NCBI RefSeq assembly: GCF_018304765.1
Contig: NZ_CP072642.1
Location: forward strand, 603,501 to 667,500
Source of the DNA: Chloracidobacterium sp. N
Lineage (GTDB): Bacteria > Acidobacteriota > Blastocatellia > Chloracidobacteriales > Chloracidobacteriaceae
Direction of reading: 5' to 3'
Length of the DNA stretch: 64,000 nucleotides
The stretch's first letter is position 1. The number at the start of each line of letters is the position of its first letter. Under the pieces are notes generated by a model that saw nothing but the letters and a program-made list of their open reading frames with translations, had not been told where the DNA came from and did not search any database. A program made the translations under genes and the position numbers. Below, piece by piece: positions 1,870 through 8,297 of this stretch.

Positions 1870-4506
<2,637 letters not shown>

Positions 4507-4550: not shown

Positions 4551-5000
4551 ATGACACTGCAACGCTTGGATCCTTTCCGTGACATCGTCAATCTGCGCAA
4601 CCAGATGGATGCCCTTTTCAGCGAAATGGGGCTGTTGCCGCGGGCGGCCGGACAGGCGGAAGCCGCTGCCACGTGGTCGCCGGCGGTGGACATCTATGAG
4701 ACGGACAAGGAAATCGTCCTCAAAGCTGAACTGCCCGACATCAAGCAGGAAGACATCCGCGTCAGTGTGGATAACAACCGGTTGTCCATCACAGGCGAGC
4801 GGAAGTTCGAGTCGGAGGTCAAGCGTGAAAACTACCACCGCATCGAGCGGTCGTACGGCACGTTTGCCCGTACCTTCACCTTGCCGCCGACGGTGGATCA
4901 GGACAACATCCGGGCTGAATACAAACAGGGTGTGCTGACCGTTTCCCTGCCGAAACGGGAAGTGGCCCAGGGCAAGAACATCGCCATTCAGGTCAACTGA
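4551..5000 (+). CDS. Small heat-shock protein, Hsp20/alpha-crystallin family
   Basis: This 149-residue holdase binds unfolding proteins until ClpB and DnaK refold them. A short N-terminal segment starting TLQRLDPFRDIVNLRNQM, typical of bacterial class A sHSPs, is followed by the alpha-crystallin domain (about 45-135: WSPAVDIYETDKEIVLKAEL, then the ISITGERK-type strand). The C-terminus is short (KNIAIQVN) and carries an I-x-V-type anchoring motif. GGAGG lies about 11 nt before the ATG. The gene follows clpB by 44 bp and probably shares its heat-inducible transcript. Confidence 0.93.
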   Translation: MTLQRLDPFRDIVNLRNQMDALFSEMGLLPRAAGQAEAAATWSPAVDIYETDKEIVLKAELPDIKQEDIRVSVDNNRLSITGERKFESEVKRENYHRIERSYGTFARTFTLPPTVDQDNIRAEYKQGVLTVSLPKREVAQGKNIAIQVN

Positions 5001-5127: not shown

Positions 5128-5844
5128 ATGAGCGACGAACCACGCGAAACCGCCGGTGCGGAGGCGCCGGTCGTGAACGTGACCGACAGGCGCCGTCTGT
5201 ATATGGACACGATGGAGACGTCCGCCGACACGGCTTCGTCCGTGGAATCCTCCGTGGACACCGCATCTGTGGAAGCCGCCGCGGAAGCGCCGGCTGACGC
5301 CTCCCAGGCGGCACTGCCCACCGTGCAACAGCTTCAGATGCAGCTTCGGGAGCGCGACGCCCAACTGGCGCGCTTGCGGGCGCAGGTCGTTGAATTCGAA
5401 GCCAAAACCCAGGAAGAATTGCGTGAGACCCGCCGCCGTCTGGAGCGGACCGTCGAGCAGCGGGTGCTGCACGCGCGGCAGGCCCTGCTCGAAGACTGGC
5501 TGGCCGTGTTTGACAACCTCGACCTGATGGTGGCCGGGGCGGAGAAAGCCACCAAAGAAGACCTGCTGACCGGGATTGTGGCCATGCAGCGGATGCTCAG
5601 CCAGACGTTGCAGCGGCACGACGTGGAACGGATTGAAGCCGTCGGGCAGCCGTTTGATCCCCAGCTTCACGAAGCCATTGAAACCCTGACGGTCGCACCT
5701 GAACAGGATGGACAGGTTGTGGCCCAGACCCGTCCGGGCTACCGTCTGGGGACGCACCTGATTCGTCCGGCGCTGGTCTCGGTCGGGCGGGCTGAAACCT
5801 CGTCGGCGGTCCTTTCGGAAGCGGACGTTCCGGCGAACATTTAG
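5128..5844 (+). CDS. grpE: GrpE, DnaK nucleotide-exchange factor
   Basis: GrpE releases ADP from DnaK and so restarts the Hsp70 cycle. The 238-residue protein has a disordered, acidic, Thr/Ser/Ala-rich N-terminal third, a long coiled coil (about 70-130, QLRERDAQLARLRAQVVEFE), and the C-terminal beta domain with the conserved GQPFDPQLHEAI and the final RPALVSVG. The frame is open from 5050, but ATG 5128 (MSDEPRE) with GGAG 13 nt upstream looks a better start. dnaK and dnaJ are not next to it in this window, so the Hsp70 genes lie elsewhere. Confidence 0.9.
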   Translation: MSDEPRETAGAEAPVVNVTDRRRLYMDTMETSADTASSVESSVDTASVEAAAEAPADASQAALPTVQQLQMQLRERDAQLARLRAQVVEFEAKTQEELRETRRRLERTVEQRVLHARQALLEDWLAVFDNLDLMVAGAEKATKEDLLTGIVAMQRMLSQTLQRHDVERIEAVGQPFDPQLHEAIETLTVAPEQDGQVVAQTRPGYRLGTHLIRPALVSVGRAETSSAVLSEADVPANI

Positions 5845-5999: not shown

Positions 6000-8297
6000 A
6001 TGATTGACTTTGGCGATTTCGCAGACCGGTTTTCAGAAAGCGGACAGCGCGTCATGCGCCGCGCCTACGAGGAATCGAAGAACCGCGAGCATAATTTTCT
6101 GGCGCCAGAACACATTTTCCTGGCCCTGACGGAAGTCGAGCGTCCCCTGATCAACGAGATCATGCAGAGCCTCAACCTCGACCCGCAGGCCATTCGCAAT
6201 GCGCTCGATGGACGGCTTTCCATCCAGCGGCAGTTCGTGGGCAAGCGGATGAAGCTCCACGATGCCACGCGCGACATCCTCAACAAGGCCATGCGTCGGG
6301 CGCGTCAGAACGGACGGCAGGCGATTGACTCAACTGACCTGCTCATTTCCCTGTTTCAGGATGAAGATGGTGTGACAGCATCCGTACTCCGGCAGTTCGG
6401 GGCTGACCCGCAGGAAGTCGTCGAGCGGGTGGGCATGCGGCTCAAATCGCGTGAGGAGCGCGAGGCCCGCATCAGCCGCAAGTTCGAGCTGCCACCCTAC
6501 ATCAAGCACTTTGGAACGAGCCTCAACAAGCTGGCCCGCGAGGGCAAGCTGCCGCCGGTCATCGGCCGGGAGCGGGAAATCCAGCAGATGATTGAAATTC
6601 TCTGCCATCGGGAGCGCGCCAACTCACCTATTCTGATTGGTGAGCCGGGGGTGGGGAAAACGGCGGTGGTCGAAGGGCTGGCCCAGATGATCGAACTCGA
6701 ACCGGACCGTGTGCCACGCCGTCTGCGCAACGCCCATATCGTCTCCATGCAAATCTCGAATGTCGTGGCCGGCACGATGCTGCGCGGCATGTTTGAAGAG
6801 CGCATCCAGGGCGTCATCAATGAAGTCAAGGAGCGGGAAAACCTCATTCTGTTCATTGATGAAGTCCATACCATCATCGGGGCCGGCTCGGCGATGGGCG
6901 CAGCCGCCGATGCCGCCAACATGTTCAAGTCGGCGCTGGGGCGCGGTGAACTGCGGATCATCGGCGCGACGACCACGACGGAATACAAGGAGTACATTGC
7001 CGAGGATGAAGCCTTGGCGCGTCGTTTCCGAACGGTATTCATTGCCGAGCCAAGTATCGAGGACACGCGCAAGATTTTGCAGGGCGTGCGTCCGCGTCTG
7101 GAGCAGAACTACTCGGTGCAGATTTCGGACGAAGCGCTCGAAACGGCCCTCGAAATGGCCCCGCGCTACATTCGCAGCCTGCACATGCCGGACAAGGTCA
7201 TCGGCTGGCTGGATACGGCTTCGGTCAAGGTGGAAATCAATCAGCCGGAAGAGCCGCTTGTGCTCAAGCAGCATGTCATTGATGTCATTGCGCAGGAATC
7301 GCGCATCCCACACGATATGATCTTCCGCGAAACGACCGAACGCTTTGCCAATATGGAAGCCGAGCTGGCCAAGCGCGTCATCGGTCAACGCGAAGCCGTG
7401 GAGAGTGTCGCCCGCCGGCTCCGCCTCAACAAGGGGCCGCTCAAGGAAAACTTCTACAAGCCGGATGGCGTGTTGTTGTTCCTCGGCCCGACGGGCGTCG
7501 GCAAGACGGAACTGGCCAAAGCCGTTGCCGAGTTTATGTTTGGCGACGAGCAGAAGATGATTCGGATTGACATGTCGGAGTACCAGGATGGCGTTGTGGC
7601 CGTGGAGAAACTCATCGGCATGCCGCGTGGGATTGTCGGCTCGGAGCGGGGTGGGATTCTCACCGAACGCCTGCGCGACAACCCCTACACCGTCCTGCTG
7701 CTTGACGAAATCGAAAAGGCGTCGCCCTACCTGCTCAACCTGTTCCTCCAGGCTTTTGACGAAGGCTGGCTGACGGATGGCCGCGGCAAGAAGGTGTATC
7801 TGTCCGATGCCATCATCATCATGACATCGAACCTGGGCAGCGAGAACTTCAAAAAGTACATGAAGCCACTTGGCTTCGGCGTCAAGTCGCTGGGCGACAT
7901 GAAGGAAATCAAAAATGAAGTGCTCAAGGCCGCCGAAACCCGTTTCTCGCCGGAGTTTCGGAACCGCATTGACGAAATTGTGGTCTTCTCGCCGCTGACG
8001 CAGGACGAGGTGCGGCAGATTGCCGTTCTCTACCTCAACAAGATCACACGGCAGATGGCGAAGTTTGGCAAATCGCTGCAGGTCACCGACGCCGCCATTG
8101 ACCAGCTCGTGCAGCAGGGCTTCAGCCCGGCATACGGGGCGCGCTTCCTCAAGCGGACCATCGATGAGAAGGTCAAGCTGCCCATCACCCTGCGGTGGAA
8201 TGCCGTCAATGCTTTCACTGTGGATGCGCGGGATGGGCAGGTGGTCGTGACGGAAGAACGTACGGAAGCCAGCCCGGCTCCGTTTTCAGTCAACTAG
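6000..8297 (+). CDS. ClpC/ClpA-like AAA+ unfoldase with divergent pore loops
   Basis: This 765-residue protein has two AAA+ modules. It shows an N-domain repeat (about 1-140), D1 with Walker A GEPGVGKT (about 214) and Walker B LFIDEVH, almost no middle domain, and D2 with Walker A GPTGVGKT (about 496) and Walker [14 protein letters not shown] triplet after TSNLGSENF matches the ClpP-docking loop position, so it may feed ClpP. Both pore-1 loops are abnormal: KYRG of D1 is MLRG (260-263) and GYVGY of D2 is GIVGS (544-548), so the substrate-gripping tyrosines are missing. ATG 6000 with GAGG six bases upstream is preferred over an in-frame start at 5925. It ends the heat-shock cluster. Partner and substrate are unknown. 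Confidence 0.85.
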   Translation: MIDFGDFADRFSESGQRVMRRAYEESKNREHNFLAPEHIFLALTEVERPLINEIMQSLNLDPQAIRNALDGRLSIQRQFVGKRMKLHDATRDILNKAMRRARQNGRQAIDSTDLLISLFQDEDGVTASVLRQFGADPQEVVERVGMRLKSREEREARISRKFELPPYIKHFGTSLNKLAREGKLPPVIGREREIQQMIEILCHRERANSPILIGEPGVGKTAVVEGLAQMIELEPDRVPRRLRNAHIVSMQISNVVAGTMLRGMFEERIQGVINEVKERENLILFIDEVHTIIGAGSAMGAAADAANMFKSALGRGELRIIGATTTTEYKEYIAEDEALARRFRTVFIAEPSIEDTRKILQGVRPRLEQNYSVQISDEALETALEMAPRYIRSLHMPDKVIGWLDTASVKVEINQPEEPLVLKQHVIDVIAQESRIPHDMIFRETTERFANMEAELAKRVIGQREAVESVARRLRLNKGPLKENFYKPDGVLLFLGPTGVGKTELAKAVAEFMFGDEQKMIRIDMSEYQDGVVAVEKLIGMPRGIVGSERGGILTERLRDNPYTVLLLDEIEKASPYLLNLFLQAFDEGWLTDGRGKKVYLSDAIIIMTSNLGSENFKKYMKPLGFGVKSLGDMKEIKNEVLKAAETRFSPEFRNRIDEIVVFSPLTQDEVRQIAVLYLNKITRQMAKFGKSLQVTDAAIDQLVQQGFSPAYGARFLKRTIDEKVKLPITLRWNAVNAFTVDARDGQVVVTEERTEASPAPFSVN

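Follow-up and report, generated by a model that had tools for sequence, protein, structure and literature searches.

The gene at positions 6000–8297 of the window, the stretch of 64,000 nucleotides analysed here, encodes a two-ring Clp/Hsp100 ATPase that has no aromatic residue in the pore-1 loop of either ring. The protein belongs to a family, termed here the GIVGS family after its D2 pore-1 loop, which is apparently an ancient, undescribed branch of the bacterial protein-unfolding ring motors. It is probably an active translocase that feeds ClpP through an aliphatic, weakly gripping channel and receives its substrates from chaperones. A pore-1 aromatic has been reported in all AAA+ unfoldases (PMC9663308) and is described as their main grip. 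No description of the GIVGS family was found in the open-licence papers searched, and its novelty is provisional to that extent.

The open reading frame is unbroken, and the ATG at 6000 agrees with the conserved N-terminus of the family. The product contains the Pfam domains Clp_N, AAA, AAA_lid_9, AAA_2 and ClpB_D2-small and shows what characterizes a two-ring Clp/Hsp100 AAA+ protein: two AAA+ modules, Walker A and B motifs, an Arg finger, sensor-2 and a Clp N-domain. The Walker motifs of both rings, which an earlier note on this DNA had described as retained, are intact, as are the Arg fingers and the GAR sensor-2. An AF2 model (48 sequences) had a pLDDT of 83.8 and gave ClpC, ClpB and ClpA as top PDB matches. 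In this model, residues 546-549 form a low-pLDDT loop ahead of a helix, as a D2 pore-1 loop should. Residues are numbered from the ATG as residue 1, except in the D2 hairpin discussed below (W591, Y601), where a version with one more residue at its start was used and the values exceed the ATG count by 1. The features of the gene are:

6000..8297, + strand: two-ring Clp/Hsp100 ATPase of the GIVGS family, 765 aa, with a double Clp_N, D1 and D2 and without M-domain
6639..6662, + strand: D1 Walker A, GEPGVGKT
6777..6788, + strand: D1 pore-1 loop MLRG in place of KYRG, residues 260-263
6846..6863, + strand: D1 Walker B, ILFIDE
6879..6911, + strand: D1 pore-2 loop GAGSAMGAAAD, with the tip changed from Glu/Asp/Ser to Met/Leu/Ile and a one-residue insertion
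7485..7508, + strand: D2 Walker A, GPTGVGKT
7584..7604, + strand: D2 pore-2 loop QDGVVAV, with the canonical M-E-K-H gone and one Ile/Val inserted
7629..7643, + strand: D2 pore-1 loop GIVGS in place of GYVG[YHF], residues 544-548, inside the invariant GMPRGIVGS
7692..7709, + strand: D2 Walker B, VLLLDE
7764..7799, + strand: D2 hairpin GWLTDGRGKKVY before sensor 1, with a family-specific aromatic pair, W/F and Y
7869..7877, + strand: LGF, a tripeptide of the ClpP-docking type, residues 624-626

Alignment with the solved ClpC proteins of S. aureus and B. subtilis, with E. coli ClpA and ClpB and with 54 canonical Clps placed MLRG and GIVGS exactly on KYRG and GYVG[YHF]. This confirms that both lie at the true pore-1 sites, as had been claimed, and an aromatic pore-1 loop elsewhere, which the earlier note had named as a refutation, was not found in the alignments. 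Among 139 non-chimeric members from three phylum-level groups, which are phylogenetically non-independent, the D2 loop reads GMPRGIVGS in every case, while the D1 aromatic position is occupied by Leu in 90, by Phe in 49 and by Tyr in none. Since GIVGS is invariant and D1 mostly has Leu, a pore-1 aromatic is missing from both rings in this protein and in the majority of its class. The claim of a loss in both rings thus stands for this protein and for most members from Acidobacteriota, but not for the approximately one-third of the family that retains Phe (never Tyr) in D1. Nor is the loss specific to one gene, as had been supposed; it is fixed across the GIVGS family.

The DNA encoding the GIVGS loop comprises 119 different 30-mers across 130 loci, so that the identity of the loop reflects constraint at the protein level and not chance. 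Its invariance in the 139 members indicates a loop under selection rather than a decayed one. The mean frequency of the top residue was 0.96 at D2 pore-1 compared with 0.72 for the whole protein. One locus (L099:2153-4526) with GYVGY in D2 was considered as an exception and rejected. Its D1 is 99% identical to that of a family member from Pyrinomonas, and from the D2 Walker A onwards the sequence is a canonical Clp D2; most likely it is a MAG assembly chimera, and it was left out of the counts. A plasmid search yielded only relatives with less than 60% identity; the loops were read in six of these and had the canonical form.

In trees of D1, D2 and D1+D2, the GIVGS family was split from ClpA, ClpB, ClpC and ClpK with UFBoot 100 and separated by branch lengths of 0.84-1.0. 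The window protein scored 630 bits against the ClpA model TIGR02639 (NCBIfam; cut-off 993, ClpA of the same genome 1091) and 646 bits against the ClpB model TIGR03346 (cut-off 1232). The alignment revealed no counterpart to the M-domain of ClpC (residues ~420-472). The separate clade, the scores below both cut-offs and the missing M-domain point to an Hsp100 lineage of its own, and the designation ClpC-like therefore does not hold by descent. With ClpC (B. subtilis, S. aureus and M. tuberculosis ClpC1), its best PDB match by sequence and by fold, the protein shares two AAA+ rings, a double Clp_N and a docking tripeptide ([LMV]GF). It differs in clade, in the short M-domain that ClpC carries between D1 and D2, in having MLRG/GIVGS where ClpC has KYRG/GYVG[YH], and in being encoded in a chaperone operon. 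ClpA likewise has two rings, no M-domain and a ClpP-docking loop (IGL/IGF), but the GIVGS family forms a separate clade with pore residues unlike those of ClpA, and none of the 23 outgroup genomes checked yielded a ClpS. ClpB/Hsp104 shares the two-ring architecture and the genomic association with DnaK/GrpE/Hsp20, whereas the GIVGS protein lacks the long M-domain, carries the docking tripeptide and has a different pore chemistry.

The distribution of the family was surveyed in Acidobacteriota and two further phylum-level groups, with presence and absence judged partly from draft genomes. Of 98 Blastocatellia genomes searched, nearly all contain an orthologue or at least a fragment of it at the edge of a contig, and orthologues in other genera of this class are 64-78% identical to the window protein. 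The genomes without it (e.g. G008, G034 and G036) may reflect draft gaps or real losses. More distant orthologues (53-61% identity) are scattered among other Acidobacteriota and were also detected in 28 of 198 genomes from a phylum with members deposited as 'Deltaproteobacteria' and in eight of nine from a small phylum.

In the window, the GIVGS gene follows three chaperone genes, of which the latter two were assigned from sequence and stand in the same order in relatives:

1870..4506, + strand: clpB, with the canonical pore loops KYRG and GYVGY, first gene of the chaperone cluster
4551..5000, + strand: Hsp20 small heat-shock protein gene
5128..5844, + strand: grpE-like gene

The normal loops of this clpB had been recognized correctly in the earlier note, which was silent on the chaperone operon and on the further pore-loop changes described below. 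A common order in Blastocatellia is clpB-hsp20-grpE-groEL-GIVGS gene, and one in the 'Deltaproteobacteria' lineages is (clpB)-dnaK-dnaJ-GIVGS gene-(usp, degP). Among the 78 GIVGS loci with enough flanking sequence (a few of them counted twice), 53 have a chaperone gene on the same strand within 6 kb, compared with none of 12 canonical ClpA/ClpC loci; the other 25 have no chaperone gene nearby. Proximity of genes to chaperones does not prove functional coupling.

The ClpP-docking tripeptide, in the form [LMF]G[FY], is present in all readable members of the family, and the loop around it varies. The docking-like LGF noted earlier is thus borne out, and the loss of its conservation that was to speak against it was not seen. 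ClpP was detected in all sampled genomes, in the draft genome G363 by a weak match only. The chaperone cluster and the double Clp N-domain would also suit a chaperone or disaggregase that cooperates with ClpB/DnaK independently of ClpP and bears the LGF-like triplet by coincidence. This is unlikely, because the tripeptide persists in a variable loop and is missing from ClpB and ClpK in the comparison set, and because the GIVGS protein has no M-domain. ClpB binds DnaK via its M-domain.

Other positions lining the channel are altered as well. The D1 loops of ClpB are stapled across by the pairs K250-E254 and R252-E256 (PMC6546751). In the GIVGS family, the first of these pairs has changed from Lys-Glu to [MIV] and M (Met-Met), hydrophobic on both sides, and the R and E of the second are invariant. 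The altered tip of the D1 pore-2 loop touches the substrate in ClpA/ClpB (PMC9663308, PMC6546751). E-K-H of the D2 pore-2 loop, equivalent to E639/K640/H641 of ClpB, which project into the channel (PMC6546751), is replaced by D-G/S-small plus the inserted Ile/Val. Together with their conservation, these coordinated changes indicate that the substrate path was remodelled as a whole and has since been fixed.

In the hairpin that precedes sensor 1 of D2, the GIVGS family carries W/F and Y at sites occupied mostly by R and D in canonical proteins. W/F is present in 137 of 137 readable members and Y601 in 64 of 65 representatives, compared with D/N in canonical proteins, and hairpin strands are predicted at 591-593 and 599-601 in the AF2 model. 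The aromatic grip might thus have moved to this pair as a putative substrate contact replacing the pore-1 tyrosine. We regard this as distinctly improbable, since the pair may be structural and the reach of the hairpin into the channel is conjectural.

The genome from which the window derives (two contigs, 3.7 Mb; closest named relatives Chloracidobacterium, Blastocatellia) also encodes ClpA, a ClpC, ClpB and one clear ClpP, and the D1 aromatic is most often lost where a genome also has ClpA/ClpC, which is a trend only. A strict rule, by which Phe in D1 occurs only where ClpA/ClpC is absent, was rejected: G158 and G120 have Phe together with ClpC, and G403 has Leu with no ClpA/ClpC found. The coexistence and the trend would be expected of a subunit of mixed rings with ClpA or ClpC, or of a regulator of these. 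However, the GIVGS protein is the sole ClpA/ClpC-type ATPase in 21 of 21 outgroup genomes examined, with ClpB alongside in nearly all; in G394 and G489, two more such genomes, it is accompanied by another Clp-like protein. As many genomes with the family thus lack both potential partners, and as the window protein is only 36-39% identical to the paralogues of its own genome, has intact ATPase sites and has relatives that keep Phe next to ClpC, mixed rings are very improbable. Among the three options of the earlier note, that of another grip fits best, and that of a partner in mixed rings fits poorly in view of the outgroup genomes. A non-translocating, ATP-driven scaffold or holdase with degenerated pore loops, for which the missing aromatic and charged channel residues might speak, is scarcely credible, because few parts of the protein are as well conserved as these loops, the opposite of degeneration.

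An active motor feeding ClpP is thus our preferred reading, supported by ATPase and docking motifs, conservation and gene context, all taken from sequence. As a member of a separate Hsp100 lineage, the GIVGS protein would act as an ATP-driven two-ring translocase and dock on ClpP; along its channel, Met, Leu, Ile and Val take the place of Tyr and charged residues. Threading of the polypeptide would still proceed hand over hand, with contacts that are shallow, weak and tolerant of sequence. The best-suited substrates would be those already loosened by the co-encoded DnaK/GrpE/ClpB/sHsp/GroEL chaperones, and stable folded domains would be less suitable to pull apart. We infer all three elements, ClpP docking, weak grip and chaperone hand-off, from these features. 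A precedent for a weak aliphatic grip is the D1 ring of p97/Cdc48, in which pore-1 is Leu278-Ala279, substrate is bound more weakly and an aromatic substitution is lethal in yeast (PMC9098461). Msp1, with two aromatics that serve strong extraction, stands at the opposite end (PMC7018516). The precedent is limited, as p97 belongs to another AAA+ clade and its second ring keeps aromatics (Trp-Phe in D2), whereas the aromatic of the GIVGS D2 is lost. Furthermore, ClpB is less active when the charges of the D1 staple are reversed or D2 pore-2 is changed (PMC6546751), and a channel altered to this extent might not translocate.

Tentatively, the family may represent an undescribed Hsp100 class that translocates without a pore-1 aromatic in either ring, with all four sets of pore loops turned from aromatic or charged to aliphatic or small, encoded in chaperone operons, coupled to ClpP and present in several phyla, in some instead of ClpA/ClpC. 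With such a natural, deeply conserved Clp lineage, one could test directly whether threading as such requires the aromatics or whether these serve strong unfolding only. The family also suggests that Acidobacteriota and related lineages have a third ClpP-type unfoldase, so far overlooked and linked with the heat-shock operon.

Some further observations were made around the Clp genes. A perfect palindrome, GGCTAAGAAATTAGCC, lies at approximately 1800-1815 of the window, with a good sigma-70-like promoter on one side and the start of clpB on the other, and is a possible operator of the chaperone cluster. A CIRCE element was not found in the window, and none was listed in the scan of the other family loci. 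In G358, the sole ClpB-like match (L202, G358 C1:2036688-2037962) is a 623-aa open frame with no D2 match, and clpB may be truncated or split in this genome. In the 'Deltaproteobacteria' loci L086, L088, L090, L091, L113 and others, a universal stress protein gene is located immediately 3′ of the Clp gene, and several loci of this group have a DegP-type protease further downstream. A conserved, predicted secreted protein of ~285 aa is encoded directly 3′ of the Clp gene at L109:8615-9467 and approximately 35 other loci; it occurs in many Blastocatellia, is absent from this position in Chloracidobacterium and looks like a protein of the outer-membrane lipoprotein-sorting type.
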